Shown piece by piece: positions 38,071 through 64,000 of a stretch of DNA of 64,000 nt (within the stretch, counting starts at the first letter, position 1; each line of letters starts with the position of its first letter). The DNA lies in NCBI GenBank assembly GCA_033060915.1, contig CM065389.1:13122001-13186000 (forward strand), written 5' to 3'. Below the pieces are notes generated by a model. That model did not search any database, was not told the DNA's origin, and saw only the letters and a list, made by a program, of their open reading frames with translations. This stretch comes from Euryodendron excelsum (taxonomy: Eukaryota > Streptophyta > Magnoliopsida > Ericales > Pentaphylacaceae). The position numbers and the translations under genes were made by a program.

Positions 38071-38654
38071 AACAGAACAGTGAGGATAAGGGCTGCCGCA
38101 CTCGAGGAGTTGAAGCAACAGCTGCAGGAGTTCCTGAGAAATAACGTGGACGTGTTCGCCTGGTCTCACGAAGACATGCCCAGTATTGACACACGAGTAG
38201 CGGCTCACTACTTGAACATCGACCCTAAGGCCAGGCCAGTCAAGTAGAAGCGGAGGAACTTTGCACCAGACAGGAACGATACAGTTGCTGAAGAAGCGGA
38301 GAAGTTAGTGCAGGCAAAGTTCATCAGGGAAGTGCACTACCCCACTTGGCTCTCCAACGTTGTCATGGTGAAGAAGTCCAACGGGAAGTGGCAGATGTGT
38401 GTTGATTTCACCGACCTGAACAAAGCGTGCCCCAAAGACAGTTTCCCACTACCAACCATTGACCTCCTCGTCGACTCTACTGCGGGGTATGAAATGCTAA
38501 CCTTTATGGATGCTTTTTCAGGATATAACCAGATCCGGATGGCGGAGCGCGACCAAGAGCACACAGCCTTCATTACAGACCAGGGGCTCTATTGCTACAA
38601 CGTCATGCCATTCGGGTTAAAGAATGTAGGGGCAACATACCAACGGTTGGTCAA
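38071..38654 (+). pseudogene. Tat reverse transcriptase, N-terminal part
   Basis: It encodes the pre-RT region (NVDVFAWSHEDMPSIDTRV) and RT fingers and palm: KFIREVHYPTWLSNVVMVKK, NGKWQMCVDFTDLNKACPKD, FMDAFSGYNQIRM and MPFGLKNVGATYQRLVN. TAG at 38,245 replaces the usual Gln in PVKQKRR. The frame is cut at 38,654 by giant LTR L5, with GTCAA (38,650-38,654) duplicated at 49,295-49,299; the remainder of RT follows there. Confidence 0.9.
38650..38654 (+). repeat. Target-site duplication GTCAA, left
   Basis: GTCAA directly before L5 and again at 49,295-49,299 directly after it. Confidence 0.92.
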
Positions 38655-38864
38655 TGTAAGCATCCCATTTTTTACCGCTCGACAGTCTACATTCCGTCCA
38701 GACTTGTTTTCAAGTCATTATGGGCATATTCCTATTAAAACCAATTCTCTAGGTCCAAATTCCGTCTTTCCTTCACTTCATGGGCCGGTCAAGCCCAAAT
38801 AAAGACAAAATGACCAAAATGTCCTTAGGGGGCATTGACCTTTCCTTTCCAATTCCAATCCCTC

Positions 38865-39560
38865 TCTCGAGACAGTTTATTCCTCGAGACGGCCCGAGTA
38901 GCGAAACTACTCACAAAACCGTTAGAGTAGCGGAAATACTCACAAATAGGTCGATATAAGGAATTGACAACAAATCCTTGTGTCATAACGACCGCCGTTA
39001 GAGTGGCGGAAACACTCAAAACCTAGGCACGTCTCCTCGGAGACGGTAAGACCCCTTCCCAATCCCACTCTCAAGACAGTTTATTCCTCGAGACGGTTCC
39101 AATCCAGGCACGTCTCTTTGGAGACGGTAAGACCCCTTTCCAATCCCACTTTCGAGACGGTAAGACCCCTTTCCAATCCCACTCTCGAGACAGTTTATTC
39201 CTCGAGACGGCTCCAATCCAGGCACGTCTCTTCGGAGACGGTAAGACCCCTTCCAGTCCCACTCTCGAGACAGTTTATTCCTCGAGACGGTCTGAGTAAC
39301 AAAACTACTCACAGAACCGTTAGAGTAGCTGAAATACTCACAAAACCGTTAGAGTAGCGGAAGTACTCACAGAACCGTTAGAGTAGCGGAAATACTCACA
39401 GAACCGTTAGAGTAGCGGAAGTACTCACAAAATCGTTAGAGTAGCGGAAATACTCACAAAACACTTAGAGTAGCGAAAATACTCACAGAACTGTTAGAGT
39501 AGCGGAAATACTCACAAAATCGTTAGAGTAGCGGAAGTACTCACAGAACCGTTAAAGTAG
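38865..39560 (+). repeat. 81-bp and 29-bp tandem repeats in L5
   Basis: About four 81-bp hairpin units (38,865-39,295), then a 29-bp array with consensus 'gttagagtagcggaaatact' plus 'cacagaacc' (39,300-39,560). The 29-bp array continues at 44,849-44,960 after L6, showing that L6 inserted into it. Confidence 0.85.
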
Positions 39561-41462
39561 TGTAAGCACCCCATTTTTGACCGCTCGGCAGTCTACACTC
39601 CGTCCAGACTTGTTTTCAAGTCATTTTGGGCATATTCCTATCGAAACCAATCCTCTAGTCCAAATTCCATCTTTCCATCGCTTCGCGGGCCTGTCAGGCC
39701 CAAATAGAGGTAAAATGACCAAAATGCCCTTAGGGGCATTATCCTTTCTTATTCCAATTCCAATCCCTCTCTCGAGACGGTCCGAGTAGCAAAACTACTC
39801 ACAAAACCGTCAGAGTGGCAGAAACACTCATAAAACCGTCAGAGTGGCGGAAACACTCACAAAACCGTTAGGGTGGCGGAAACACTCACAAAACCGTCAG
39901 AGTGGCGGAAACACTCAAAACCTAGGCATGTCTCTTCGGAGTCATTAAGACCCCTTTCCAATCCCTCTCTCGAGACAGTTTATTCCTCGAGACGGTTCCA
40001 ATCTAAGCACGTCTCTTCGGAGTCGGTAAGACCCCTTTCCAATCCCTCTCTCGAGACAGTTTATTCCTCGAGACGGTCCGAGTAGCAAAACTACTCACAA
40101 AACCGTTAGAGTAGCGGAAATACTCACAAAACTGTTAGAGTAGCGGAAATACTCATAGACCCGTTAGAGTAGCGGAAATACTCACAGAACCGTTAGAGTA
40201 GCGGAAATACTCAATCGTTAGAGTAGCGGAAGTACTCACGGAGCCGTCCGAGTAGCGGAAATACTTAACCGTTACAGTAGCGGAAATACTCACAGAACCG
40301 TTAGAGTAGCGGAAGTACTCACAGAACCGTTAGAGTAGCGGAAATACTCACATAACTGTTAGAATAGCGGAAGTACTCACAGAACCGTTAGAGTAGCGGA
40401 AATACTCACAGAACCGTAGGAGTAGCGAAAATACTCTCAAATCGTCAACCCCGTCCGAGTAACGGAAATACTCAACCCCGTCCGAGTAGCGGAAATACTC
40501 AACCCCGTCCGAGTGGCGGAAACACTCAAAACCTAGGTCAATACCCATGTTTGTTAGCTCACTTCGGTGAAAAATGACCAAATTACCCTTTGGACCTTTT
40601 CCGGTCAAGATGACCATTTTTGCCCCTAGGCATCCGAACGCCCTAGAAACCACACCGGCTCTGGGTATCAAACCGGTAATGTCCCGAGAATACTTTTTAT
40701 AGTGTTCTCGACCTTCCTTTACCTTTTCGGACCATTCCGAGTCAGTTCCGGCCAACCCGGTGCAAAATGACCGTTTTGCCCCTAGAGGGCCGGTCTCCTT
40801 CTTCAACCACACCGGCTCTGGGTATCAAACCGGTAATGTCCTGAGAATATTTTTTATAGTGTTCTCGACCTTCCTTTACCTTTCCGGACCATTCCGAGTC
40901 AGTTTCGGCAAACCCGGTGCAAAATGACCGTTTTGCCCTTGGTGGGCCGGTTTCCATATCCGACCATGCCGGCTCTGGGTATCAAACCGGCAACCTCTGG
41001 GAACATTCTAAATAATGTTTCCAGATCCCAAGTCTTCTTCCGGGACAGTTTGAGTCTGTCCCGGCAGTTTTCTGGACCAATTGACCATTTTGCCCCTATA
41101 GGCTCGGTCAACCTTTCCGACACATCCAATCCTCACTTTTCAAGTCAAATACCTCCAGGACACTATTTTAAGTGTTCCTGCTCCTTTCCGACCTTCCGGG
41201 CCACTCCCGGCTCCTTCAAATCATTCCCGGACTTTCCGGAGTCACTCCTAGTGAAGCCAGGCTAAAGTTTACATGGTAGTCACTAGTATAGGCGCCCAAA
41301 TCTAGTCAAAGATACGTTGTTTGCCGACCTTAATTGTTTCCTAAATGGCTGGCACCACTAGCAGTGGCGCCAAGCCAAAAAATGGCCTGGCGCCACTCCT
41401 AGTGGCGCTAGTATAAATTTTGCCTTGGCGCCACTGCAACAGGCGCCAGGCTTGTCCAACTT

Positions 41463-41470: not shown

Positions 41471-42329
41471 ACAGAGCCTCGATCAACGTGAAAAGGGTCT
41501 GCAAACTTAACCTAAAAATCCTATATTTCGATATACAGAGCTCGAGCACCTCCTAAACCCTAGCCTCCCTAGGTTTTCCAAACCCTAGCCACTATACACA
41601 AACCCTAGCCTCCTATACACTCATACACTCCCCCATACACTCATACACTAGCCTTCAACCACTCTCTAAAGACTTGAAGAGCAGCCATCCAAAGCTTGAA
41701 GACAATCCTTGAAGACTGAAGGTGAAGATCAAGACCGAAGACCGAAGATCGAAGACTGCACGGCGCGCAAAATAAACAAGAAACAAGGTAGGCTTTCTCT
41801 TTAATTTTCTGCACTTCCCCCCTCTCTCTTCTCTCTCCAACCCACTTGGGTTTTCTCTATTTTAATCCCCCATCTCTTTCCCTCCCTTTCTTTGTATGTT
41901 TGAAACAAGGGGATTCCCGGTCCATGTGTAGGATTGGACTATTGGAGAGTCACCGTGTCGGGGGCTTTCTTCTAGTCTAACCAAAGACCACGTGGGTCCG
42001 GCCCCCTTGATTATGTGGTGAAGCCTTAGCCTTGTATGTTCACGACCCCAAATTGCATTGTGCATATCATAGTCTTGCATCTTCCGAAAACCGTTTTCAA
42101 AGTTGTTTTCAAACTTGTTTTCAAATTGCATCAAAATCCCTTTTTCAAAAACTTGTTTTCAAAACCACAATTCTAGGGTGATTCTAGCCTTTCCATGGCT
42201 ACGGTTGCTTTAGGAAAGTGTTATATTAAAAGTGACCTTTTGGTCTATATTTTCAAACCTTGTTTTCAAAACCACTTTCTTAAAGTGGTTTTAGCCTTCT
42301 TATGGCTAGAATCGCTTTAGGAAAGTGAG

Positions 42330-44290
42330 ATGTTTTTATCCCTTCTAAAAAGCTCTCTTTTCAAAAATCTCTTCCTAAAAATCTCTTTTTCAACATACTT
42401 TCCTAAAGCTCTTCTTTTCAAAATTGTTTTCAAAAACTCCCTTCCAAAATCTATTTTTCAAAACTCCTCTTTTTCAACTCCTTTCCAAACTCCTTTCCCC
42501 AAAATCCACTCTCTAAAAACGCTCCCGAAAAATCGTTCCAAAAACTCTCTTTTCCAAAATCTTCCTTTTAGAAATTCCCCTCTAGGATCTTCCTTCCAAA
42601 ATCTACGTTTCCAAAAATACACTTTCTAAAAATCCCTTTTCCTTAGAGCCCAAGTCAAGCCCTAGAGCTAACCATTAGGAAACCCTAATTTTCTTTCTGA
42701 AAACATGATTTTCAAACTTTGCCCCAAACCTAGGTTTCCAAAACCTCTAGTTTTCACATCCAAATTATTCATGTTTCCAAAACCTCTTTTCTACGTCAAA
42801 ATTATAATTTTCCAAACCTAGGGTTTCTAGAATCTCCCTTTCCAAATGCTTGTCAAATCCTATCTTCCCTTTAGAAAACCGAATCAAATCTCCCCGTTTA
42901 GGAAACTAGATCCCGTCCTCCGTTTTTGGAAACAAAATCAAATCTTTTCTTTTAGAAACTAAATCCAATCCCCTCCTAATCCTAAACCTTTTCTAATTCA
43001 ATTCCTTCCTAAACCATAAGTTTCCTAAACCTAAACTTTAAACCTTTCTTTAAGTTCCAAAATCCAACTCTTCTCTAATTCAAATCCTTCCTAAACTTCC
43101 GTTTTCCTAAATCTTCTAAATTTGAACATAAAAATCTTTCCTAAATTTTAAAACTCAACTTTCAAATCTTTCCTAACTCAACCCCCCTTTCCAAATCTTA
43201 ACCCTCCAAATTCAAGTTTTCAAACTCTTCCTAAACTCAAACCTTTCCTAATTTCAAGATTTCCTAAAACCCTAAAACTTTCTAAATCTTAAACTTTCCA
43301 AATTCAAAACTTTCTAAATTCTAAATTTTCTTAAACTTCAAATCTTTCCAAATCTAAAACTTTTCTAAATTCAAAACTTTCTTAATTCAAGACTTTCTTA
43401 ATTCAAACATTTCCTAAAACGAAACTTTCCTACTTTCAAGACTTTCCTAAGTTAAAACTTTCTAAATTCAAAACTTTCCAACTTTCAAAACTTCCTAATT
43501 TTCTAACCTTTCCTAAAACAACACTTTCCTAAGTTGAAACTTTCTTAAACCTAAAACTTTCCTAAAGTGAAAACTTTCCTAAATTCCAAACTTTCCCAAT
43601 TTCAAAACTTTCCTAAGTTGAAACTTTAATAATTTCGAAACTTTCCAAAAATGAAACTTTCCTAATTCAAAACTTTCCAAAAATAAAATTTTCCTAATTC
43701 ACAACTTTCTTAAACTTGAAACTTTCCTAATCCAAATCTTTCCTAAATTCCAAGTTTCCAAATCTTTCCAAATCTTTCAAATTCAACATTCCAATCCAAT
43801 CTTTCTTAATCTCAAGTCTAGGTTTCCTAAACCTCCATCTTTCCAAAACCAAGTCTTTCCAAAATCAATCTTTTTAAATCAAAGTCCAATCTTTCCAATT
43901 TCAATTTCCAATCTCCTTTTCTAATCTCAAATCAAATCCAATTTTCAATTCAATCTCTTTCTTCCAATCCAATTTCTCTCTTCAAATCAATCTATTTTCA
44001 ATCGGACTCTTGTCCGAACTACGACTGACCTGATTCCCCCAAAGGGATACGTAGGCAACCTTCATAGGTGCAGTCACAATATTTTTCAAACTTTCAATTC
44101 CACCCTCATGGGTGCGGTTTCAAAATTCTTTCCAAATCTCAAATCCCAATCTATTTTCAAAATTTCAATTTCAAAATTTCTATTTTCAAATTTCTATTTC
44201 CAAATTTTCAAAATTTCCAATTTCAATTCCATCTTTTCAAATCTATTTTCAAATCAAAGCAATCTCTTTTTAAATCTATTTTTCAATTCT
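42330..44290 (+). repeat. Degenerate CTTTCCTAAA-type array in LTR leader (L6)
   Basis: About 2 kb of loosely periodic 12-17-nt units (variants of 'aaactttcctaaattc'), strand-asymmetric: pyrimidine plus A on this strand, almost no G. The equivalents are 46,850-48,760 (L5), 34,745-35,680 (L3), and reversed 29,400-31,430 (L2) and 150-2,100 (L1). Long open frames inside are composition artefacts. Confidence 0.8.
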
Positions 44291-44843: not shown

Positions 44844-44848
44844 AGTAG
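44844..44848 (+). repeat. Target-site duplication AGTAG, right
   Basis: Matches AGTAG at 39,556-39,560, bounding L6. Confidence 0.88.
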
Positions 44849-47800
44849 TAGAAATACTCACAAAACCGTTAGAGTAGCGGAAATACTCACAAAGTCGTTA
44901 GAGTAGCGGAAATACTCACAAAGCCGTTAGAGTAGCGGAAATACTCCCAAATCATCAACTCCGTCCGAGTAGCAGAAATACTCCCACCGTTACAGTGGCG
45001 GAAACACTCAAAACCTACGTCAACACCAGTGTCTGTTAGCCCACTTTAGTGGAAAATGACCAAACTACCCTTAGGACCTTTTCCGAGACTTTCCGGTCAA
45101 GATGACCATTTTGCCCCTAGGCATCCGAACGCCCTGGGAACCACACCGGCTCTGGGTATCAAACCGGTAATGTCTCAAGAATACTTTTTATAGTATTCTC
45201 AACCTTCCTTTACCTTTCCGGATCATTCTGAGTCAGTTCCGGCCAACCCAGTACAAAATGACCATTTTGCCCCTAGAGGGCCGGTCCCCTTCTTCAACCA
45301 TACCGGCTTTAAGTATCAAACCAGTAATGTCCCGAGAATACTTTTTATAGTATTCTCAACCTTCCTTTACCTTTCCGGACCATTCCGAGTCAGTTCCGGC
45401 AAACCCGGTACAAAATGACCGTTTTGCCCCTAGTGGGCCGGTCTCCTTTTCTGACCACGCCGGCTCTGGGAATCAAACCGGCAACCTCTGGGAACATTCT
45501 AAATAATGTTTCTAGAGCCCAAGTCTTTTTCAGGGACAATCCGAGTTCGCCCCGGCAGTTTCTTAGTCCGATTGACCGTTTTGCCCCTAAAGGCCCGGTC
45601 AACCTCTCCGACACATTTTGTCCTCACTTCTCAAGTCAAATACCTCCAGGACACTATTTTAAGTGTTCCTGCTCCTTTTCGGCCTTCTGGGTCACTCCCG
45701 GCTCCTCCAAATCATTCCCGGACTTTTCGGAGTCACTCCTAGTGAAGCCAGGCTAAAGATTGCATGGTAGTCACTAGTACAGGCGCCCAAATCTAGTCAA
45801 AGATACGTTGCTTGCCGACCTTAAACCTTTCCTATTTGGCTGGCGCCACTAGTAGTGGTGCTAGTGTAAAGTTTGCCCTGGCGCCACTGCAACAGGTGCC
45901 AGGTTTGTCCAACTTCTATAAATACAGAGCCTCATTCAACGTGAAAGGGGTCTGCAAACTTAACCTAAGAATCTTATATTTCGATATACAGAGCTCGAGC
46001 ACCTCCAAAAACCTTAGTTTCCTTAGGTTCTCCAAACCCTAGCCACTCTACACTAAACCCTAGCCACCATACACAAACCCTAGCCTCCTATACACTCATA
46101 CACTCCCCCATACACTCATACACTAGCCTTCAACCATCCTTTGAAGACTTGAAGAGTTGCCATCCAAAGCTTGAAGACAACTCTTGAAGACTGAAGGTGA
46201 AGATCAAGACAAAGACCGAAGACCAAAGACCGAAGACAGCGCGGCGCGCAAAATAAAGAAGACATACGGTAGGTTTTCTCTTTAATTTTCTGCACTTCCC
46301 CCCTCTCTCTTCTCTCTCCAACCCACTTGGGTTTTCTCTATTTTAATCCCCCATCTCTTTCCCCCCCTTTCTTTGCATGCTTGAAACAAGGGGATTCCTG
46401 GTCCATGTGTAGGATTGGGCTATTGGAGAGTTACCGTGTCGGGGGCTTTCTTCTAGCCTAACCAAAGACCACGTGGGTCCGGCCCCCTTGATTATGTGGT
46501 GAAGCCTTAACCTTGTATGTTCACGACCCCAAATTGCATTGTGCATATCATAGTCTTGCATCTCCCAAAAACCGTTTTCAAAGTTGTTTTTCAAAACGTT
46601 TTCAAACTTGTTTTCAAAATTGCATCAAAATCTCTTTTTCAAAAACTTATTTTCAAAACCACAATTCTAGGGTGATTCTAGCCTTTCCATGGCTAGGGTT
46701 GCTTTAGGAAAGTGTTACATTAAAAGTGACCTTTTTGGTCTATATTTTCAAATCTTATTGTTTTTCAAAACCGCTTTCCTAAAGTGGTTCTAGCCTTCCT
46801 CTGGTTAGAATTGCTTTAGGAAAGTGAGATGTTTTTACTCCTTCTAAAAACTCTCTTTTCAAAAAATTTCTTCCTAAAAATCTCTTTTTCAACATACTTC
46901 CCAAAAACTCTTCTTTCCAAAATTGTTTTCTAAAAACTCCTTTCAAAACTTTCTTTTTTTCAATTCCTTTCCAAAACGCTCTCTTCAAAGTCCACTTTTC
47001 AAAAACTTTCCCTAGATCTCTTTCCTAGAAAAATTCTCCCCAAAAAATCTTTCTAAAAACTCTCTTCCCAAAATCTTCCTTCGAGAAATTCCACTCTAGG
47101 ATTTTTCTTCTAAAATCTTCGTTTCCAAAAACACACTTTTCAAAAACTCCTTCTCTTTAAAATCTTTTTCCAAAAACTCTATCTTCAGATTCACTTTCCA
47201 AAAACTCCTCCCTAGGATTCCCTTCTAGAAAACCTTCGTTTTCAAAAACGCACTTTCCAAAAATCCTCTCTTTTTAGAGCCCAAGTCAAGCCCTAGAACC
47301 TACAATTAGGAAACCCCAATTTTCTTTCCAAAAACATGATTTTCAAACTTTGCCCCGAACCTAGGTTTCCAAAACCTCTTGTTTTTATATCCAAACTATC
47401 CACGTTTTCAAAACCTATTTTCTACGTCGAAACTACAATTTTTCAAAACTAGGGTTTCTAGAATCTCCTTTTCCAAATCCTTGCCAAATCCTATCTTCCC
47501 TTTAGGAAACCAAATCAAATCTCATCGTTTAGGAAACTAGATCCCGTCCTCCGTTTTTGGAAACAAAATCCAACCTTTCTCTTTTAGAAACCAAATCCAA
47601 TCTCTTCTTAATCCAAACCTTTCCTAATTCAATTCCTTCCTAAACCATAAGTTTCCTAAACCTAAACTTTAAATATTTCCTTAAATTTCAAAATTCAACT
47701 CTTTCTTAATTCAACTCCTTCCTAAACTTGAACATAAAAATCTTTCCTAAGTTTTAAAACTCAACTTTCAAATCTTTCCTAAACTCAAACCTTTCCTAAT

Positions 47801-49294
47801 CTCAAGATTTTCTAAAACTCTAAAACTTTCTAAATCTTAAACTTTCTAAATTTTAAATCTTTCCAAATTCAAAACTTTCTAAATTTGAAACCTTCTTAAG
47901 TTAAATCTTTCTAAGCCTAGAAACTTTCTAAATTCTAAACTCTCTTAAACTTCAAATCTTTCCAAATCTAAGACTTTTCTAAACTCAAAACTTTCTTAAT
48001 TTAAGACTTTCTTAAGTTGAAACTTTCTTAATTCAAACATTTTCTAAACTAAAAACTTTCCTTTTTCAAACCTTTCCTAAAACAAAACATTTCTAAATTC
48101 AAAACTTCCCTTTTTTCAAAACATTTCTAAATTCAAAACTTTCCAATTTCCAAACTTTCTTAAATTCAAAACTTTCCTAAATTCAAAACTTTCCTAATTC
48201 GAAAACTTTCCAAAAATGAAACTTTCCTAATTCGAAACTTTCCTAATCGAAATTTTTTTCCTAAATTCCAAGTTTCCAAATCTTTTAAGATCTTTCCAAA
48301 TCTAACATTCCAATCTAATCTTTCCTAAGTCTAGGTTTCCTAAAACCAGGTCTTTCCAAAATCAATCTTTCTAAAGCAAGTCCAATCTTCTCAAATTCAA
48401 TCTCCTTTTCTAATCTCAAATCAAATCCAGTTTTCAATTCAATCTCTTTCTTCTAATCCAATTTCTCTCTTCAAATCAATCTCTTTTCAATCGGGCTCCG
48501 GTCCGAACTACGACTGACCTGATTCCCCCAAAGGGATACGTAGGCAACCTTCATAGGTGCGGTCACAACATTTTTCAAACTTTCAATTCCACTCTCATGG
48601 GTGCGGTTTCCAAAATCTTTTCAAATCTCAAATTCCAATCTATTTTCAAACTTTCCAATTTAAATTCTATTTCTTCAAATCTATTTTCAAATCAAATCAA
48701 TTTCTTTTCAAATTAATTTCTATTTTCCAATTCTCTCATCTTGTACTTGCATATCATGCATCATGCTAAATTAGTTTTCAAACATTGTTTTTCAAAGTGA
48801 ATAGGGTTGAACTATAGTTAGTCGAAGACTCTCATAGGTGAATCTAGGGTAGATTGACATGTAGGTACCAAAAGGGCGGGGTAGGGTGATAGCTTAGTGC
48901 GTCTTCCCTACACGTAACCAACCTCCGAACTTAGGATCATTGATTTCAAAGACCAAAAGGAGTTATTTTTCTAAAAAGGGCTAAATATTTTCCAAAGGTT
49001 GCCAAACAACCTGTTTTCCTTAAAAACCCTCTCTTGAGGAGATATTTTCAAAATCGTTTTTCAAAAACCCTAAGTGTAGTTTTCGGATTATGCTTAGTTT
49101 TTAGGTGACCTAACTCACCTTAATCAAGTTGGGTGGCGACTCCGAATCTTTTTCAAAAGCCCTTTATTCAAACCTGTTTTCAATTCAAACCTAATCGCAC
49201 TCATTCTTCTAGGAGGGTGAGTTCTAACGAGAGAGTACAACATTTTTCCCACTTAGGTGAGTATTCCTCGAGTGCGAAAAATCTGGGCGCGACA

Positions 49295-50140: not shown

Positions 50141-50730
50141 TGCCACCCCTGAAGCTGACCTTCCCGACACCCACTGGGTCTTGAATGTTGATGGTTCTTC
50201 CACTCATGATTCCGGTGGTGCCGGCATGGTCCTCGTCACCCTCGATGGCTACAAAATGGAATATGCACTCCACTTCAAGTTCCCTGCCACCAACAATGTT
50301 GCAGAGTACGAAGCACTCATTGCCGGTCTTAGAATGGCTCAGCGAATGGGGGTAGAATAGATAGTTTTGCGAAGCGAGTCTCAATTGGTGGTGGAACAAG
50401 TCCAGGGAGAGTATGAAGCTAGAGAAGACAACATGAAGCAATATTGCCAAGTGGCGAAGAGCTTGGCTAGAAGGTTTGCGAAGATACTCCTGGAACGTGT
50501 CCCTAGATTACAGAATGAAGAGGCAGACCGACTGGCTAGGATAGCCTCCTCAAACGAGACCGACCCGAACGTCCCAATTGAGATTCTCGATTCACCAAGC
50601 ATTCAGAACCCGGAAGTCGACCAGATCGAGCCCGAATCCTCATGGATGACCCATATCAAGAACTACTTGGAGAACAGAACCCTGCCTGAAGATCGGAATG
50701 AGGCGAGGCAAATTCAATACCGTTTGAGCA
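50141..50730 (+). pseudogene. Second (archaeal-type) RNase H of Tat element
   Basis: THWVLNVDGSSTHDSGGAGM starts a second RNase H domain, followed by NNVAEYEALIAGLRMAQRMG, then SESQLVVEQVQGEYEA and RLQNEEADRLARIAS. This extra RNase H between RNase H and integrase is the hallmark of Tat-lineage gypsy elements. Asp and Glu of the first motifs remain; the third acidic position reads Glu (SES). TAG at 50,358 breaks the frame. A one-base frameshift near 50,720-50,733 separates this frame from the integrase. Confidence 0.88.
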
Positions 50731-51859
50731 GATACTCTACAAAAGGGGGCATACCATGCCGCTGCTTCGTTGCGCCAGTAAGGAAGAGGCAGACTACATA
50801 ATGCGGGAGGTCCACGAAGGGGTGTGTAGGAACCACTCTAGTGGCCGGTCTCTTGGCAAGAAGATACTACGAACGGCCTTCTATTGGCCCACGATCGAGA
50901 AAGATGCTCAGGAATTCGTTAAGAAGTGTGACAAGTGCCAACGGTTCGCCAGTATCCCAAGATTACCCTCGCAGGAGCTGACCCCGATCCAGACCCCTTG
51001 GCCGTTCGTGCAGTGGGGGATCGATATCGTGGGACCATTACCGCTCAGCAAAGGACATACCAAATTTGTAGTGGTGGCGATCGACTACTTCACAAAGTGG
51101 GCGGAGGTAGAGGCCCTACCGACAATCATGGAGGAGAAGATGAAGAAGTTTTTGTGACAGAATATTGTGTGCAGGTTTGGAATCCCCAAGGTTGTCATCA
51201 CGGACAACGGGAAGCAGTTCAAGGGTAGACAGTTCAACAAATTATGCACTGACCTAGGGACAAGCCACCATGCTTCGTCCCCAGAGCATCCTCAGGCAAA
51301 CGGCCAAGTTGAAGTCACCAATCGGTCCCTCTTGAAGATCCTCAAGACGAAGTTGGAGAAGGCCAAGGGCTTGTGGGCAGAGGAGCTCCATAACATCCTA
51401 TGGGCCTATAGAACAACGGAAAGAGTGTCCACGGGGCAGACGCCGTTCTCACTTACCTTCGGCACCGAAGCTGTCATCCCAGTAGAGATTGGTCTCCCTA
51501 GCCCTAGAACGGTGCAGTTCGACCCTATGACCAACGGCGAGGCCCTAAATGTGGATCTGGATCTATTAGAGGAAAGGAGACTACAGATAGCCATGAGAGT
51601 GGCGACCTACCAATAGAAGATGCGCCAGTACCACAATTCCAGAGTTCAGCCAAAAGACTTCACGACCGGGGACCTTGTTTTGAAAAGAGTCAACCAGTCG
51701 ACCAAGGATCCTAGAGAGGGAAAGCTCGGACCCAATTGGGAAGGACCCTACCAGGTGGTCGGCAGTACCAGAAAGGGGATATACAGGTTAAAGAACTCAG
51801 AAGGCAAGGAGCTCCCGCACCCGTGGCACGCAGAACATCTAAGGAAGTACTACACTTGA
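50731..51859 (+). pseudogene. Tat integrase
   Basis: After the frameshift the frame reads ILYKRGHTMPLLRC, then the HHCC zinc region (EVHEGVCRNHSSG ... KKCDKCQRF, about 50,810-50,945). The DDE core follows: GIDIVGPLP (D near 51,022), ITDNGKQFKG (D near 51,200) and PQANGQVEVTNRSLLK (E near 51,310). A C-terminal region ends KELPHPWHAEHLRKYYT and TGA at 51,857-51,859. Stops: TGA 51,155 (expected Trp) and TAG 51,614 (expected Gln). All catalytic residues remain, but the gene is broken. Confidence 0.92.
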
Positions 51860-51966
51860 AAGGCTCCTACTTGCAATTCTCCAAAATATCAATAAAAGCG
51901 ATTGTTCAACAAATTGTCCATATGTATCGACTTTGAATTTATCTACTTGCGTGGAAAAGACATTAA

Positions 51967-52345
51967 ATCTGCTCGGCCAAGTGTCGAGCAGAGCCAGAGG
52001 GTCTTAAGTGGCAATGACACAGAAATTGAATCTGCTCGGTCAAGTGCCGAGCAGAGCTAGAGGGCCTTAAGTGGCAATGGCACAGAAATTGAATCTGCTT
52101 GGCCAAGTGCCGAGCAGAGCCAGAGGGCCTTAATTGGCAATGGCACAGAAATTGAATCTGCTCGGCCAAGTGCCGAGCAGAGCCAGAGGGCCTTAAGTGG
52201 CAATGGCACAGAAATTGAATCTGCTCGGCCAAGTGCCGAGCAGAACTAGAGAGCCTTTAGTGGCAATGGCACATAAATTGAATCTGCTCGGCGGTTGGCC
52301 GAGCAGATCCAGAAGGCCTTCTTTGCTCAGAAATGAGCAAAGAAG
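51967..52345 (+). repeat. Six 63-bp hairpin repeats downstream of pol
   Basis: Six units at exact 63-bp spacing (starts near 51,967, 52,030, 52,093, 52,156, 52,219, 52,282). Most contain CTGCTCGG, a 7-nt loop and CCGAGCAG, a perfect 8-bp hairpin. The array lies between the integrase stop and the 3' end of the antisense gene. Confidence 0.92.
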
Positions 52346-55535: not shown

Positions 55536-56149
55536 TGGTGATAGGGTTTCCCGACTAGACTAGAGATCCATCCCATGCCACCTAATCGTTGCCCGACCAG
55601 GTCTCCAGGCCATTCGTCCTCGACTTCTCGAGCTGAACAGACGCCCGCAACCGCCCTCCAATAGGGTCAGCGCCAGACCGTATCGGGGGGGGGGGGCCCA
55701 CTTCTGACACTGGCCGCCCCGGCATGCATCAGGGGCATGGGTGTGGCGTGTACTTGCAATAATCGCCACACCCTTGACACCGTTCTGACACACGCCACCT
55801 TGGAGTGTAAAGGTGGTCCTCTCAAGTATTCTAACACCATTCTGATCCCTAACCAGGAGACCGCCATGTGGAGAAACCACCTACCTCCACCATGCAAGCA
55901 TACAAGGGGAAAACTTCAGCCTCTTCACAGGTACAAAAAATATACGCAACCCTAAGATTTCTCTCCCTCCAACACTCTGAATCTAACTAGAACATTAGAG
56001 GGCCTTTGGCTCCCATCACACCGGTGGGTTTTAGTGCAGGAGATCATCGGCCGACCAAAGAGCAGTTCATCCCGGACCTGGGGGCAAGCCACTACGAGAT
56101 TGCTTCATCATCAGCTAGGACAAGCCACCACGAGATTGCTGCATCATCA
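55536..56149 (+). repeat. 3' LTR of the Tat element
   Basis: 614 bp, homologous to 28,064-28,640 but 37 bp longer. The last segment ('caagcca' to 'catcatca') is present twice (about 56,083-56,117 and 56,118-56,149). Followed by TATAT (56,150-56,154). Confidence 0.92.
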
Positions 56150-56369
56150 TATATATTCTCATTTGTTTGGAATTTGGACGTAATGAAATTAAAATTTTCA
56201 ACCTGAGAAAGACAAGGCAAAGAAAGACCCAGAGCATGCTCACAAGCACAAGATAAAGGAAGAAATTACTGCAGTTGGAGCTGGCGGGTATGCACTCCAC
56301 AAGCACCATGAGAAGAAAGAAGCAAAGGCTCATAGTCATGGAAAGAAGCATCACATCCACCTCTTTTGA

Positions 56370-57262
56370 TTTTCTAGTTGGTTGTCCATGTCTCTGTCTT
56401 CTTTATTTTCAACCGTGTTTTGTGTTATCTTTGTTGGTACTTGGCAGTGAGCAACTATATAGATTCTTAAATAATCATATGTACCCTGTTAAGTTTGCCT
56501 ACTGTTTGTAATTATTTGCCTTAATTAAATATTATTTCAGATGTTTATTATAATGTTAGTCCCTTGTCTACGTGTGTATATTATGGAGGAGTTGAAAGTA
56601 AAATATTATTTTTACAAAAAATTCATATAAAATTTGCATACAAAATAATATAGCAGTAACTGTTTCTTTTGAAGTGAAAAACTTTTATTAAGACACATCA
56701 TTTTGTTTATATAGCATCACCTGAGTTAAAAATATGCTTGATTAGATAATAATTATGCCCTTATGCAAGGCACTAAAATGCGACATGTCGGCATCAAAAG
56801 AAATAAAAAAAAAATGGTTAAGCGCAATATGAAAAGCAATACTCTTAGCAAAGTTTTGCATTTTAGTGGTGGTTTATGTAAATAAATTGAAAAATGCTAC
56901 CATTAACTACAACTGATGGTCAGTCGCTGGCTGATAGTGGCCACCTCAACTGGGACTCACTAGCTAATGGTTGGTCTAGACTGATGTGGCCATCATCAGT
57001 CGGCGACTGACCATCAGTTGCAGCTACTGGTAGCAAGGCTTAAATAAATTTTATGCTGGCAGTGGATACTCTTAGGATATAACTCTTGATCTTTATGTGC
57101 TCATGTATAGAAGTTACATCTTGATTAAGATTCTATTAATAAGAGAATAAGGTAGATTTCTATATAAACAAGACTTTTAAATAGAACTTTTATATAAAAA
57201 TAATATAGTTATTTGTAGTCCATTTATTTTAAACTAAATCATCGCTCATAATTTTGAAAATA
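56370..57262. other. 3' flank of ASR gene E, then unique sequence
   Basis: 56,370-56,600 matches the 3' flanks of genes B and D ('tgttagtcccttgtctacg' and neighbours), confirming the identity of E exon 2. Beyond that is AT-rich sequence without a gene, apart from the foldback at 56,895-57,035. Confidence 0.7.
56895..57035. repeat. Foldback element, about 50-nt arms
   Basis: Left arm 56,895-56,944 and right arm 56,985-57,035 are inverted complements at about 85%, with a perfect 18-nt core (CAACTGATGGTCAGTCGC) and TGCTACCA termini; the spacer is about 40 nt. It could be a small foldback transposon or a miRNA-like hairpin. No target duplication was found. Confidence 0.8.
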
Positions 57263-57580
57263 CTATGCCAGACCATGGCTAATTTCTTTTCTTCTTTCTT
57301 GCATGGATAATTTCCCACTTAAAAGTAAAATCATACGGACATCCATGCCCAACGTATTCGCATTCATAATGCAAATGACTTTCGCTACCATTGATTTAAT
57401 TGGTAAGTGGGACTTTCCACTGGCCACAGAAGAAGGGACTGATTTTCCAGTAAAGTTAAAGCCCAGGAAAGTGAAGGGCTGATCTGATATTAAATTAATC
57501 ATTTCTTCATAATTAAGGGATAAAATGGCCGGTGATGGGGCCCAATTGAATGGCACTTTTGGGAAGTGAATATCTGACAA
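57263..57580 (-). CDS. Unclassified 105-codon ORF
   Basis: An uninterrupted frame with ordinary amino-acid composition (MSDIHFPKVPFNWAPSPAIL at the start). I do not recognise the family. Its first codons overlap the complex inverted repeat at 57,555-57,669. It could be a captured fragment or chance; no promoter or introns are evident. Confidence 0.2.
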   Translation of the reverse strand: MSDIHFPKVPFNWAPSPAILSLNYEEMINLISDQPFTFLGFNFTGKSVPSSVASGKSHLPIKSMVAKVICIMNANTLGMDVRMILLLSGKLSMQERRKEISHGLA

Positions 57581-57669
57581 GTATGTGTGCTGGGGTAATA
57601 TCGAGAAAGGATATATTACCCCAGATATTCACTTCCCAAAAGTTCAGCCCCAGCACACATACTTGTCAG
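57555..57669. repeat. Three interlocking perfect inverted repeats
   Basis: Pair A: 57,555-57,576 with 57,622-57,643, 22 nt perfect. Pair B: 57,574-57,595 with 57,648-57,669, 22 nt perfect. Pair C: 57,590-57,601 with 57,613-57,624, 12 nt perfect. The order A-B-C-loop-C'-A'-B' cannot all pair at once, so alternative hairpins compete. Confidence 0.92.
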
Positions 57670-58849
57670 AACGTTCTATATATAGATATATATATACATC
57701 TCTTATTTTCCCATTGAGGTATTAGTAAACTAGTGAATCGTTACTGATAATTTTGATACACTCCCAATCATTGATCGAGTCTAACAGAAATAAAACCAGA
57801 ATTATAGTAGTTGTATCCAGCGCACAAGGCTCTACTTAACTCGAACCCGTGCTAAAGTGCCGAGCATATGACTTTTGCCATCGCACCAAATTACAAGCTC
57901 TAGATAAAACTGATATTATGTAGTTCTTTTTTGAATTTTTAAAATTGTTAAGGTCAATGATCCCTCTTTATCATGTGAAAGTAACAAAGATGAATCGAAG
58001 AAAATTTGCTTAGTTCATTGGACAGTGTTTTAATTAGTAGAATGGATACCGTTTTAATTATTCGTATTCATTGGACAGTGTAGACCAGGGAACAACATTT
58101 GTTTAGTTCTGATTATCCCTACACAAGGAAACACCTATTCTTTTCCAAGAATCAAACTGTTTGACCTATAGAAAAGGAGGATTCAAGGCATTCACATTCA
58201 AAAAACTAGAGGGGGGGAGGGGGGGATTGTTGTTATTCAAGATGATTTTGACCCATAAAAAGAGGATCTGAATGATTATTATTTTCCTATTCTTTTGGCT
58301 TTGCCCACTTGTTTTCTCTTTTGTGGACATAAGAGACATTTAAACACAATCAACTTTTTATAAAATGTCTAGATTCTATTCTCCCTAGAAGAGCATATCC
58401 CCTACATTAACAGAATTTATAGGTGAATAATATTATATGAGGAATGAACAACACTACAAATATGCACAGGTATTCTTTCTCAATGTGTAGCTGGGCTGCA
58501 GCCTCTTGAACAGTGTTAATAGCAGACCCCAAAACTGAGCATCAAAGAAAGGGCACTGCTATAAAAACAAACAAGATTTTGTAAAAACTTGATTACAGGC
58601 TAAAGATGCCTTCTCTTTAAATAACAGGCACATGTAGTAAAGATGTCACATCAGTTCATAAACAAAAGCTTACTATAAATTTTAAGTAAGAATATTACCA
58701 ATATATGTCAATCTCGGACTTTAGAACTGAAAAAATATGAGAGCGTGAATTTGTCTAAATTGATTAATTAACTAAAATAATTGACTATGTGATCAGTTTA
58801 ATTAAAAAGGTACGTCAATCCTATGTGTAACTTTAAACTAATAAAGTAA
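57670..58849. other. Intergenic, nothing recognised
   Basis: AT-rich sequence with an AT run near 57,680-57,700 and a G-rich run near 58,208-58,227. No gene, RNA gene or mobile-element end could be supported. Confidence 0.5.
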
Positions 58850-59911
58850 AGAGATAAAGGTACACAGAATTTTAGTGTGGAAACCCTATCAACCAGGAAA
58901 AAAATCATAAAGCTATACACAGCCACTAACATACTTAGCACTATAACTTTGAATAGTTACAAGAATAAACTTACAAGCTAACCCGTTGATCCACAACTCC
59001 GCGTTGATCCAGAAATATGGTAGAAGTTTCAGACTTGATTGCAAGACACCCATGATTCACCGTTCTCTCGTGCTCTTGACGTCATTTTTGGAATCTGCCA
59101 AAAACGATATGTGTGAAGTTCTTAGTTTGGCTAAAAGAAACACTCTAATAAACTTTGAAGCATGATTCACGCCTGCAAGTGCACGATTTTGAAGTCGTTT
59201 AATACAACTAGGGGTTGGATATCGTTTTCTTCCTCGAGAATCAAGCCCAAGTATAGGTCAATGGCTCGTCAAACTTACACTTAACTTCAAATTGAATTAC
59301 AACCAAATTGAATGCTTCTTATAAAAGAGAAATAGAAAATGTGATTTGGAGTGTTTGAAATTGGTTTGATTAACTAGACAATTTGAAAGTAAAATAGAGA
59401 TTAAGACAATTTAAAAGGGATTAGATCTAATTGGTCCAACTATCCAATTCTTTAGAGGTATTCTAAGAGGCTTATAACTCAAATTAAACTCAAACAATCA
59501 AAAGAATTCAATTCGAAAGATTTAGCTTTTGAGAAATAAGTATTCTATAACAATTGACTTTAGAATTGAAATCTAATTTGAGATTCTTAAGCTAATATCA
59601 TTGATTTGGATGTTTTCATTCACAAATTGCTAAATCCTAGAATGAAAACACCAAACATAGTCAATAGCTTAAGAGTTCCATAGGTTCTAGCTATCAATTG
59701 CATAGAATTTAAGATCTAGAAAGATAATTCAATGAATTCATAGATATCTCCATAGAAATCTTGAATTCCTTGGATAGTCTTCATAATTGAACCTAATTGG
59801 GTTTTAGCTACTCATAACCATGAAAGAAATGAAGACTTTAATTGAAATCAACATGATTTTGAACTTGAAATGAGATTACAATAAAAGTACAAGTGCAATG
59901 ACAATGGAAAT
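58850..59911. mobile_element. Retroelement debris flanking the viral insertion
   Basis: The stretch 58,850-58,990 ('gtggaaaccctatcaaccagg') and 59,150-59,280 ('cctgcaagtgcacgatttt', 'ctcgagaatcaagcccaag') has the wording of noncoding parts of plant LTR retrotransposons. The AT-rich remainder resembles the relic at 22,400-23,000 ('aattccttggatagtcttcataattgaa'-like). No coding frame. Borders are arbitrary. Confidence 0.4.
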
Positions 59912-60071
59912 ACAAGCCCGCCCAGGCTGACGCCAGTGGGCCCCACAGCATCTCTCTTATTTGGTGGAGTGCCCTAGTGGGTGCCAATAATTGGGGTACG
60001 TCCATCTGAAGAGCCTATATAAATAGGCTCCCCTCCCTCTTTGATGGCTACATCGCTACTTCTGTAAATCA
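59912..60071 (+). repeat. Common-region copy 1 of viral element
   Basis: 160 bp matching 62,042-62,201 with about five differences by eye. It starts right after the predicted nick position and so lacks the 5' stem arm. It includes GTGGGCCCCAC, a GGGGTAC motif and a TATA box. Confidence 0.9.
60011..60030 (+). promoter_or_regulatory. TATA box in perfect inverted repeat, virion-sense promoter
   Basis: GAGCCTAT-ATAA-ATAGGCTC: the TATA box forms the centre of a perfect palindromic stem about 90 bp before the movement-protein ATG. A second copy at about 62,140-62,159 has no ORF behind it. Confidence 0.75.
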
Positions 60072-60116
60072 GAAGGGGTATGTAATCACACATTATTTGA
60101 GAGAGGACATAAGAAA

Positions 60117-60899
60117 ATGGCAACTGCAGGAGCTCATGTCATCTTGTCGGTTACTTTCTCAGTGGAGGAAGCAGTGAAACTTCGACTTCCTATGTTTACG
60201 TCATTGCGTAGAACGATTAATAAGGCATTGAAGATAGATCGACTGGACATAACGTACGAGCCTATGTGTGCCATTAATAGTGAAGGATTAGTCACCGTGT
60301 GTGTTAAAGATGAACGCATCCAGGATCCTTCGGCACAGACCCAATGCATGTTCGTCTTCCCGGTTAGGTGCAGAATTAAATGTACATATTTTGGGTCGTC
60401 GTGGGTGTCTGCTACGGTAGAGAAACTACCGTGGAATTGTACATATCGACTAACAGAGACAAATATAGCGACAGGGGTTAATTACTGTATGATTACAGGA
60501 TACTTAAAGTTTGCAGAATCCAGTAATCTGGGAGACACTATGTTGCGTCCTCCTATGGTGGAGGTATTGAGCGATAATTATTCAACTAGCGATGTCAATG
60601 TGTGGCATGTAGGAGAAGCTACAATGGACGCGAAAATGTTGCGGACAATGTCAGTACCGCGATTAGAATATCGCAAGACAAATGTGTTAACCAGAGTAAT
60701 TGGGTCAGATGCACATTCGATATTGCCATTTGCGACTGATGAAGATGAAATTAAACATCGTCACTCCACGTCAGTCTCAAAAATTGGACCCTCGGCGTCT
60801 CAGATTGGTGTCGATCCTGGATGCGCAAGTGTTTCCCTCCCTATCCATGATCTAGTCGCTGGAATAATATCCGTGCTACAAGATAGGGAGAGGGATTGA
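60117..60899 (+). CDS. Geminivirus BC1-like movement protein, endogenous
   Basis: 260 codons, uninterrupted, with ATG 13 bases after 'gaggacataag'. Residues 43-70 (DITYEPMCAINSEGLVTVCV and on), FPVRC at 81-85, YF at 91-92, PW at 105-106, YRLTETN at 110-116, a GYLKF strand at 128-132 and HVG at 164-166 follow the order of motifs in the geminivirus cell-to-cell movement protein (BC1/BL1 family, 30K-superfamily core). In that family the protein moves viral DNA through plasmodesmata. It is somewhat shorter than the usual roughly 290 residues, mostly at the termini. Here it lies in virion sense, as in monopartite citlodavirus-type genomes and unlike begomovirus DNA-B, where BC1 is complementary-sense. 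Its C-terminus lies in a tandem duplication. Expression in the host is unknown. Confidence 0.75.
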   Translation: MATAGAHVILSVTFSVEEAVKLRLPMFTSLRRTINKALKIDRLDITYEPMCAINSEGLVTVCVKDERIQDPSAQTQCMFVFPVRCRIKCTYFGSSWVSATVEKLPWNCTYRLTETNIATGVNYCMITGYLKFAESSNLGDTMLRPPMVEVLSDNYSTSDVNVWHVGEATMDAKMLRTMSVPRLEYRKTNVLTRVIGSDAHSILPFATDEDEIKHRHSTSVSKIGPSASQIGVDPGCASVSLPIHDLVAGIISVLQDRERD

Positions 60900-61040
60900 G
60901 ATACTGTAAATGCGAAGTCCAATATTAATATTAGATGAATATAAGAATAGTTTGCATGAAGTCAACATAGGGAGAGGGATCCAGAGAGTGCGAATGTAAA
61001 GCCCAATATTAATATTTGATGAATAAAACTGTAGTTGGCA
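60883..61040 (+). repeat. Tandem duplication at the 3' end of the movement ORF
   Basis: Two units of about 80 bp (60,883-60,963 and 60,964-61,040) share 'atagggagagggat', 'aatattaatatt' and 'gatgaata'. The first contains the stop codon of the ORF. The second includes AATAAA (about 61,022), a candidate polyadenylation signal. Confidence 0.75.
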
Positions 61041-61135
61041 AATAGTACTCTAAGATATTACACACGTACATACAAACACAACAAAGTTAAAATCATTTAT
61101 ATGTCAAGGTCTGCGCCAGCTGCAACATCTTCCTC

Positions 61136-61597
61136 TTAAGAATCAGCGAGTCTTGTTCGACGAGGGCCTACTATTAGTGGCCCCGTTTGTAATTCACGCT
61201 TGTCGTCGTCGTGCTGGTGGAAGTATCGCAAATGCTTTGGCTCTGCATAGTCAAAGTCTGGAAGTTTCTGTAGAAACTCCGCGAAATGAAGGTACCATAG
61301 CTCCATGCTAGATACTCCAGCAGTACGGCATCCGGTTTGGCATGCAAGCTTGATGCGTTTAAGAAAAGTATGCGCACGGTTGTCGTCCAACTGTTCGTCA
61401 CAGTCCATGACAATCTTGAATTCCTCGTAATAGTGGTAGAACTGCAGCAATCTCCGTGCTGGGTAATTCATGCGAAGCAATGCATAGATTGTATTAGAAG
61501 AAGTGTTCGTCAAAGTCAGAGTGATGGGCTTTAGTTCCTTGTCGTCATTCGAAACTAAGTCCTCCCAAAGGCAACCTACCTTGCTAATATCGAACAT
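61136..61597 (-). CDS. Complementary-sense 153-residue protein, unknown
   Basis: Uninterrupted ORF starting MFDISKVGCLWEDLVSNDDK, with the stop at 61,136. It is not recognised: it has none of the rolling-circle Rep motifs or Walker boxes, no signal peptide and no clear membrane segment. It has an aromatic/acidic middle (LLQFYHYYEEFKIVMDCDEQ), six Cys-containing or Lys-rich short segments and a basic end (GPRRTRL). MDCDE at 64-68 resembles an LxCxE retinoblastoma-binding motif with Met for Leu, followed by acidic residues; this may be chance. A TATA-like element on the minus strand (61,632-61,641) is placed to drive it. By position it would correspond to the second gene of a two-gene component. 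It could also be a coat- or shuttle-protein derivative too diverged to see by eye. Confidence 0.55.
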   Translation of the reverse strand: MFDISKVGCLWEDLVSNDDKELKPITLTLTNTSSNTIYALLRMNYPARRLLQFYHYYEEFKIVMDCDEQLDDNRAHTFLKRIKLACQTGCRTAGVSSMELWYLHFAEFLQKLPDFDYAEPKHLRYFHQHDDDKRELQTGPLIVGPRRTRLADS

Positions 61598-61631
61598 GTT
61601 GTACAGAATACTATTATGGCCATTGAGTTTG

Positions 61632-61641
61632 TTATATATAG
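61632..61641 (-). promoter_or_regulatory. TATA-like element, complementary-sense promoter
   Basis: CTATATATAA on the minus strand, about 35 bp upstream of the 153-residue ORF's ATG. That is close for a TATA box with an untranslated leader but typical of compact viral genomes. Confidence 0.5.
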
Positions 61642-62021
61642 AAAACGGTGGAAAATGTACATAATTTTAAAAAATATTTGTAATTTAGTGAAACGTGTTA
61701 AGTACGACATCATACATACGGATTATATAATTATATAATAAGGCGTAGTTTGAAATATCTGCGTGCGAGTACCGGTATCTCCATCTCCAAACAATGGCAC
61801 TCGAGGCAACTTTTTGAAAGACTTTCTCCTAACGTGCATCGAGTATCGAGTGTTTACTATTATATATAGCATATTACTTGACAAGCCTGCCGTTGGATTC
61901 GATTACACATGTCGCGATCCAAACCGTTGTACTAAAAGGTGAATATAATTCAAATATTCAATAATGTGTGGAAGGACTAAGTACGAAAAGGAAATATTTT
62001 TCAAATTTGGCATCAATAGTG

Positions 62022-62053
62022 GGGCGGGCGCTAATAATATTACAAGCCCGCCC
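62022..62053 (+). promoter_or_regulatory. Stem-loop replication origin with TAATATTAC
   Basis: 8-bp GC stem: GGGCGGGC (62,022-62,029) with GCCCGCCC (62,046-62,053), and a 16-nt loop containing TAATATTAC (62,035-62,043). In geminiviruses Rep nicks TAATATT/AC; here that falls between 62,041 and 62,042, exactly where the repeat unit begins. Confidence 0.92.
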
Positions 62054-62201
62054 AGGCTGACGCTAGTGGGCCCCACAGCATCTCTCTTATTTGGTGGAGT
62101 GCCCTAGTGGATGCCAGTAATTGGGGTACGTCCATCTGAAGAGCCTATATAAATAGGCTCCCCTCCCTCTTAGATGGCTGCATCGCTACTTCTGTAAATC
62201 A
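62042..62201 (+). repeat. Common-region copy 2 of viral element
   Basis: It repeats 59,912-60,071 at about 97% identity, then stops at 'ctgtaaatca' with unrelated AT-rich sequence following. Confidence 0.9.
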
Positions 62202-62824
62202 TTAATGAGATAATGTATAGAACCTTTTAAGAGCTGAATTTTTCTTTTGTATAGCTCAAGGATTTTTTTTTTCTTTTTATGAAATCTCAATATTTAAAAC
62301 ATGGTAGCCTTTTTTTTTTTTTTTTATAATTTTACCCAGATGGTGCATATTTTGATATACATCCATAGCGGCTGTCACACATGTTAAGATAGAGAGTGAT
62401 TGAATAAATGATGGAATATGAACATTGGTCAATCTAGAGTACAACTATCTTAAAGAACAAAGAATAGAGCAAACTAACAAGAAACACATATATGTTTCAT
62501 TCAAATCAGGCGTACCAAGTGTGCTCAGTGATTACATAACATTTGTTTCCAAATCAATCACAATGTAAGCAAAGATGAAGGAATTTAAATCTAAATCATG
62601 TATTCAATTGTATATTATCATTGTCATGAAAAATTAATCATCAAATTACAAAAATACTAATCACCTATAATCAGAAAACATTTTTGGTATTTTTTTTGAA
62701 ATTTTTTTAAAAAGAAAAATAATTCCTAAAGTCCACAACAACGATCATAACACCTAGGACAAAAGAATAATAATCAAATAACTTCCTATACTATGTCAGA
62801 ATTAGAACCCTAGTAAGAAAGGTT
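62202..62824. other. AT-rich flank, nothing recognised
   Basis: Runs of T near 62,265 and 62,305. No gene or repeat end could be supported. Confidence 0.5.
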
Positions 62825-63106
62825 AATCCTTACAGAATTTTTAGGGGAATTCAAGGCCTATAAATCAGATTTTCTAATTCAGACAGATTTAGAATTTTTC
62901 ATTTTTGAAGTTACTTGTCTAAGTTGACTTATTTGAGTGTTCAGATCCTTGATCTGTCTATGTAGTACATTATTAGGCATTCTAGATTGTATAGAATGAA
63001 AAGATTTTTCTGAATTTTGCAAGTGATTGTACCTAGGCCTAATATCTCCCACAATACCACAGTGATGGCACACTGAAACAAAATTAGGACGTGTAGCTCT
63101 CTGTGC
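62825..63106 (-). pseudogene. Ty1/copia gag zinc-knuckle fragment
   Basis: The minus strand encodes TRPNFVSVCHHCGIVGDIRP, a CCHC-type zinc knuckle (final His/Cys positions decayed), then a Gln/Leu-rich linker and SV*IRKSDL, where TGA replaces the usual Trp. This layout is typical of copia elements between gag and protease. No neighbouring pol or LTR was found. Confidence 0.65.
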
Positions 63107-63353
63107 CTCAAACTGTCATGCGTTCGAATGCCAATATTGATCGTTCAAACGCCTTCCATTTGAACACCAAGGTTGGTCGTTCAAACTCAATATGGTCCAT
63201 TCGAATGTAGCGGTGTATTGAAATTCGAGAAATTGGGAACATACCTGGTCTATTTTACCTGTTTCTAGTTTCTAAACTATTATGGTTCATCCTAGTATGT
63301 TTCAAAAGTTAATGGATCAAAAGAATGAACGATTTTTGGTTTGTTGCACGATT

Positions 63354-64000
63354 GTTAACACCCCATTTTTATCTGCTCGGCAATCTCCAGCCCAACCATA
63401 CTCACATTCAAATTGACACAAACACATTCAAATCCAAACCAGCTTTCTAGACTCAATTCAGTTAATCAACCACTTCATGGGCCCGCCAGGCCCAATAGAG
63501 GCAAAATGACTAAAATGCCCTTGGGGCATTGCTCGGTCTAATTCCAGTCAACACGTCTTCTTCAAGACAATAAGCCCATATTTCAACCTTAACCCAAGTT
63601 CCAATTCCAGTCATAACCAGTCAAATTCAATTTGACACGTCTATCAAGAAAACTCCTTGGACCGGTAAGTCCCTTCAAACCTGTCGACCGGGACGGAACC
63701 CAAGTCCCTAAGATGGCAGAGCAGTTCACTTCTGGCGCCTACTATCCTACCAATGTAGAATGTCTATTATTTGGCACTTCAATTTGGAAAGTACCTAAGG
63801 CTCCAAGACGATAAGACCATTCAGCAGCTTCATGAGATTAGGGAGTCTCAGGAATAAATGCACACCGTTAGAGTGATAAAAATACTCACAAACATCGCAA
63901 TCGCATCCAGGAACTATACCAACTCTAGGTATCAAACCAGTTACTCTCCAAGGATGCTTCTAATAGTATTCTCAACCTTCTAATACCTTTTCAGACCATT
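63354..64000 (+). mobile_element. Giant-LTR relative, 5' end, cut by window edge
   Basis: It starts TGTTAACACCCC, contains 'ggcaaaatgactaaaatgcc' and 'cgaccgggacggaacccaag', and continues into the 160-bp-repeat type sequence ('ctaggtatcaaaccagttac'). It matches the L0 fragment (4758-5439, reversed) better than L1-L6, so it is a diverged subfamily in plus orientation. Confidence 0.7.

Follow-up and report, generated by a model that had tools for sequence, protein, structure and literature searches.

A probable endogenous B component of a geminivirus with Oleurovirus-like architecture in a chromosome of Euryodendron excelsum

The second genome component (DNA-B) of Olea europaea geminivirus (OEGV) is described as a molecule of 2,763 nt that encodes a BL1 movement protein of 296 amino acids on the virion strand and an orphan protein of 177 amino acids on the complementary strand, with no shuttle protein (PMC8000510, PMC8540022); PMC8540022 lists OEGV sequence for the movement protein and BC1 under GenBank MW316658. 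The same account gives DNA-B a region shared with DNA-A and describes begomovirus DNA-B as arranged differently, its complementary strand coding for the movement protein and its virion strand for a nuclear shuttle protein (PMC8000510). In taxonomy, OEGV (Oleurovirus oleae) is the one named Oleurovirus species, beside an 'unclassified' node. Integration of OEGV in olive has been argued from near-identical sequences (PMC8622421) and argued against from Southern blotting, which is described as giving bands only with amplified DNA and none, whether of one kind or the other, with total DNA extracts (PMC8000510). Here, we describe an insert near the end of a 64,000-nt stretch of Euryodendron excelsum contig CM065389.1 (positions 13,122,001 to 13,186,000; hereafter the window). 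This insert is very probably an endogenous B component, fixed in the plant chromosome, of a bipartite geminivirus that has died out or has not been sampled and that had the OEGV (Oleurovirus) architecture.

The insert occupies positions 59912 to 62201 of the + strand and consists of a single unit of 2,130 nt, after which the first 160 nt of that unit appear again. The repetition is detected as a direct repeat pair, 59911-60071 and 62041-62201, with a spacing of 2,130 and 97% identity. When the two copies are compared over 59912-60071 and 62042-62201, 5 of 160 positions differ (four transitions and one transversion), which corresponds to a Kimura two-parameter distance of 0.032. The nonanucleotide TAATATTAC occurs once in the 64 kb on either strand, at 62035-62043 (+), where it lies in the loop of a hairpin. 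Folded as DNA, 38 nt containing this hairpin give a z-score of -3.1, and 1 of 200 shuffles folds equally well; a longer, 61-nt fold around it reaches only -1.6, with 16 of 200 shuffles as good. Geminiviral Rep is reported to nick the virion strand at TAATATT/AC (PMC8540022). The left boundary of the insert coincides with this position to within 1 nt of chance identity, and the first repeat copy lacks the left stem arm and the first 7 nt of the nonanucleotide, save one chance T. By a ratio worked out by hand, a left end at the nick would be expected by chance in about 2 of 2,130 cases.

The unit contains two converging open reading frames (ORFs). The longer, of 260 amino acids and on the same strand as TAATATTAC, matches the Pfam family Gemini_BL1 over residues 30-188 with E 1.1e-31, a significant hidden Markov model match that bears out the movement-protein identity proposed for it in a first-pass annotation of the sequence. 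Homology to a geminiviral protein, through Gemini_BL1, and a virion-strand origin hairpin with the nonanucleotide are both as expected of the Geminiviridae. The repeat, hairpin and ORF data likewise confirm that annotation's description of a 2,130-nt unit with an origin, a common region, two converging ORFs and a partial second copy. Neither ORF is expected by chance alongside the other: among 1,000 dinucleotide shuffles of the unit, in which ATG-started ORFs were counted, none reached 260 amino acids, ten had a longest ORF of at least 153 amino acids, and none had a second ORF that long.

A search of 5.8 billion proteins by means of shared 5-residue words gave one relative of the movement ORF, P0001, which is 82% identical and encoded on a 1,129-nt contig; a second search restricted to residues 26-190 returned P0001 only. 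The complementary-sense ORF, 153 amino acids long, also has one relative in this database, P0002, which is 75% identical and lies on a 1,927-nt contig. Each gene therefore occurs in at least one source besides the insert. At its start the movement ORF extends 15 residues beyond P0001, at its end it stops 13 residues short of it, and the complementary-sense ORF stops 13 residues short of the end of P0002. The movement ORF and P0001 differ unevenly along their length, at 8 of 115 residues in 16-130, 17 of 58 in 131-188, and 18 of 72 in 189-260. This distribution fits selection on the domain, probably during viral life.

The complementary-sense ORF is an orphan. It has no reliable family match and, within HMMER's filters, no geminiviral Pfam match up to E 5. 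Two matches below their cut-offs, to RloB (E 0.0088) and to a response-regulator model (E 0.009), were rejected as chance. Sequence searches of the PDB returned nothing credible for the movement ORF or the orphan alignment, and no movement protein relative was found in GTDB genome contigs. Viral contigs scanned with the proteins, alignments and common-region patterns yielded no relative, and no plasmid carrying the common region was found. Structure predictions from two-row alignments were poor for both ORFs (pLDDT 29 and 43). Viral fold searches with these models, which for that reason say little, gave no match at E 0.001 or better; a begomovirus BC1 fragment ranks third in the list for the poor movement-protein model, at E 0.05.

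Pfam scans detected no Rep, coat or nuclear-shuttle domain in the two ORFs of the insert, in 10 of the 48 stop-free ORFs of at least 45 amino acids within 57500-64000 (one of the ten being the orphan frame extended), or in nine other ORFs of the window. Altogether the scan took in 11 of the 34 window ORFs of at least 100 amino acids, so that a Rep gene in broken form could have escaped it in other parts of the window. The first-pass annotation had proposed an integrated DNA-B-like replicon of an unknown lineage. An apparently integrated unit with a genuine BL1 movement protein, in which no Rep or coat gene was found, is what we observe; the lineage is not wholly unknown, because the layout is that of OEGV DNA-B and not that of begomovirus DNA-B. 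In common with begomovirus DNA-B, the unit has the look of a second component that lacks Rep and carries a BL1 movement protein and a common region. Unlike it, the movement protein is virion-sense, on the opposite strand, and no shuttle protein was found. The begomovirus-type pair of movement and nuclear shuttle genes that the annotation had drawn on is thus not what the locus contains, since the second gene is an orphan and no shuttle-protein family was matched. With OEGV DNA-B as described, the unit shares a virion-strand Gemini_BL1 movement protein, a converging complementary-strand orphan, the lack of a detected shuttle protein and the TAATATTAC origin. It differs in its stem sequence and in sitting in a host contig.

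Sequence comparison with OEGV was made through eight published primers, from DNA-B or from both components (PMC8622421). One primer matches within the orphan ORF, in the predicted strand and frame, with 2 of 120 DNA shuffles and 18 of 2,000 peptide shuffles as good. Another ends exactly at the nick with GTGGGGC at an equal distance from it (9 of 120 shuffles as good), so that the insert and this published primer share both the motif and its spacing (PMC8622421). The peptide of a movement-protein primer matches at residue 101 (43 of 2,000 shuffles). These matches are suggestive and no proof of membership. Several observations weigh against the assignment to an OEGV-like B component. The unit measures 2,130 nt against 2,763 nt for OEGV DNA-B, and its ORFs 260 and 153 amino acids against 296 and 177. 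Six of the eight primers match as DNA no better than shuffles, and the best primer match would fail correction for eight tests. Of the four primer peptides, one is at chance (576 of 2,000), and one matches at residue 18 (85 of 2,000), out of order with the other movement-protein primer. The matched orphan peptide lies at residue 55 here and at about residue 112 of OEGV BC1, provided that the primer's name refers to its 5' position. Finally, no A component or Rep integrant was seen among the ORFs scanned within the 64-kb window.

The small size of the circle and the absence of Rep from the ORFs scanned could also describe a satellite that acquired a movement gene and never served as a genome component. 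OEGV DNA-B, which has this two-gene layout and shares a region with DNA-A, has been described as a genome component (PMC8000510), and we regard a satellite origin as highly improbable. In citlodaviruses, a BC1-like movement protein is virion-sense. A remnant of a larger monopartite geminivirus of this kind, from which the Rep and coat genes were lost by deletion, would agree with a unit shorter than OEGV DNA-B, and a Camellia element of 4.6 kb, itself putative, has been published with genes for Rep, coat and movement proteins (PMC7758297). However, the two ends of the unit meet at the origin and overlap by 160 nt, which implies a circle of about 2,130 nt at integration, barring later internal deletion. 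In addition, the relative of the orphan gene comes from a contig of its own, and the scanned ORFs show neither a Rep nor a coat domain, which makes such a remnant unlikely. An OEGV-type B component remains the reading that we favor.

The course of the insert, from the nick once round the circle and then 160 nt farther, is that which capture of a slightly over-length rolling-circle product would leave. In the mechanism that we propose, a helper A component would have supplied Rep in trans, and cleavage of the B component by this Rep would have fallen at TAATATT/AC. Host end-joining may then have captured a linear product of the virion strand, a little over one unit in length. After integration, the copy would have drifted, leaving repeat copies that are 3% apart and ORFs that both stop earlier than their relatives; we infer that these earlier stops arose after integration.

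DNA that is repeated in the window adjoins the insert on both sides, as expected of an endogenous element, the correctness of the join resting on the assembly. The left flank, 59705-59791, matches 22952-23039 at 78%. The right flank, 63353-64000, resembles sequence at several other places in the window, some of them near retrotransposon domains or a reverse transcriptase ORF. An assembly artifact, in which an episomal virus of the sequenced plant was mis-joined to the host contig, would agree with the clean ends of the insert and with the reported behavior of OEGV, which was symptomless and was found in 91% of 55 surveyed olive plants (PMC8000510). A circular episome read twice should, however, give identical copies, and those of the insert differ at the five positions noted above. 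The mis-join, which the first-pass annotation had named among the findings that would overturn its reading, is disfavored because of this divergence; the window-repeated flanks and the early stops of both ORFs also argue against it, and we consider it very unlikely. As a separate observation, the window contains retrotransposon fragments, Ty3/gypsy-like by their look, at 38308-38802 and 50367-51616, with reverse transcriptase (E 5.3e-16), RNase H-like and integrase zinc-binding domains; their integrase core match is below its cut-off.

On the assumption that insertion left two identical repeat copies, their divergence corresponds to about 1.2, 2.5 or 6.4 million years at substitution rates of 1.3e-8, 6.5e-9 and 2.5e-9 per site and year, respectively. 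With only five differences to count, the interval is 0.4 to 15 million years across the three rates. At the rate of 1e-9 quoted in PMC5014472, the age, calculated by hand, is about 16 million years. The insert is probably a decaying fossil, one to several million years old, and on balance we lean toward the view that an oleurovirus-type B component integrated without a Rep partner into the plant germ line some millions of years ago. Retention of one or both proteins by the host, which is compatible with this origin, might be read from two ORFs that are long and open despite about 3% divergence of the repeat, and from the scarcity of differences from P0001 in residues 16-130 relative to later ones. 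At the measured divergence, however, an unselected ORF would still be open with a probability of about 0.72 for the movement ORF and about 0.79 for the orphan. The openness of the ORFs is therefore no evidence of host use. The uneven differences may date from viral life, and both ORFs are already shortened at their ends relative to P0001 and P0002. Host takeover is thus improbable, and most likely no maintained function is encoded today; transcripts or silencing RNAs from the insert are possible.

The features of the insert are collected in Table 1. Its composition is uneven: the two ORFs have a GC content of 44-46% and the common region one of 53%, whereas the intergenic parts of the unit, at 34%, are closer to the 1-kb flanks, at 30-32%. 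In pattern scans, AATAAA occurs at 61022 (+), between the two ORFs, and was not found on the - strand of the insert; TATA-like boxes beyond those listed are present elsewhere in AT-rich parts. A search for RNA families gave none in 56000-64000.

Table 1. Positions of the insert and its features in the window
Feature	Position	Strand	Basis
Whole insert	59912..62201	+	direct repeat and junction comparison
Common-region segment, first copy; begins at nick position (AC of TAATATT/AC)	59912..60071	+	
TATA-like box upstream of movement ORF; second copy at 62146	60016..60024	+	pattern scan; putative role
Movement protein ORF, 260 aa, Gemini_BL1	60117..60899	+	
84-nt tandem duplication, 79% alike, across movement ORF end	60879..61040	+	
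Orphan ORF of 153 aa in complementary sense; corresponds in position to OEGV BC1	61597-61136	-	
TATA-like box about 40 nt upstream of complementary-sense ORF	61632..61640	-	pattern scan; putative role
GTGGGGC adjoining hairpin, candidate Rep-binding repeat; inverted copy 62070-62076	62019..62025	+	putative role
Origin hairpin: perfect 8-bp GC stem 62022-62029 / 62046-62053, TAATATTAC in loop	62022..62053	+	
Common-region segment, second copy; ends at right junction	62042..62201	+	direct repeat and junction comparison

Other repeats are abundant in the window. An 81-nt tandem unit of the GTCTCGAGGAATAAACTG type forms long arrays at 4035-4560 and 33356-34084 in one orientation and at 39922-40077 in the other; these arrays are apparently parts of repeated large elements. 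Tandem arrays of a 29-nt unit of the TACTCACAGAACCGTTAGAGTAGCGGAAA type are found at 39306-39560, 39792-39917, 40080-40436 and 44844-44951, and a 63-nt repeat at 51958-52320 comprises 5.8 copies with 91% matches. The stretches 1-2000, 29001-32000, 42001-44000 and 47001-49000 are marked by very strong GC skew, with extremes of 0.72 and -0.82. They hold 16-17-nt tandem repeats, and the + strand is G-rich in the first two and C-rich in the last two.

Endogenous geminiviral DNA as such is already well known. A large survey with Rep queries reports that 1,601 of 2,165 Rep loci also carry other geminiviral domains, such as movement or coat, and possible shuttle proteins are reported there in yam and tea endogenous loci (PMC7758297). 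The statement of the first-pass annotation that integrations are mainly Rep-derived consequently holds in part, as it partly reflects searching with Rep and most of those loci contain more than Rep (PMC7758297). A Rep-less component far from any Rep would not show up in the survey because Rep was its query, and the insert shows why Rep-seeded searches would overlook such components. In the literature searched for endogenous geminiviral elements and for bipartite viruses with a virion-sense movement protein, with most subscription journals outside its scope, no recognizable report of an endogenous Rep-less B component stood out among the matches listed, and the name 'Oleurovirus' was absent. 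If our reading is true, an entire class of endogenous geminiviral DNA escapes surveys based on Rep, and the architecture would represent an old geminiviral lineage whose several members include this unit as well as the P0001 and P0002 sources. P0002 would provide a relative for a BC1-like orphan gene, and the diverged, nick-ended, partly repeated copy would give the OEGV-type architecture a rough minimum age. The insert can also help show how two-part DNA viruses enter plant genomes. It does not settle the question in olive, and it suggests that the OEGV-type architecture can integrate into plant chromosomes.

The insert joins the Nicotiana GRD, yam EGV1/EGV2, Camellia and macadamia elements as geminiviral DNA in plant chromosomes (PMC5014472, PMC7758297, PMC8626973). 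Those elements, as described, were found through Rep and carry Rep, unlike the insert, in which only B-type genes were found. The origin, by contrast, is held in common with the published Nicotiana GRD and yam elements, and tandem repeats are described in yam as well.
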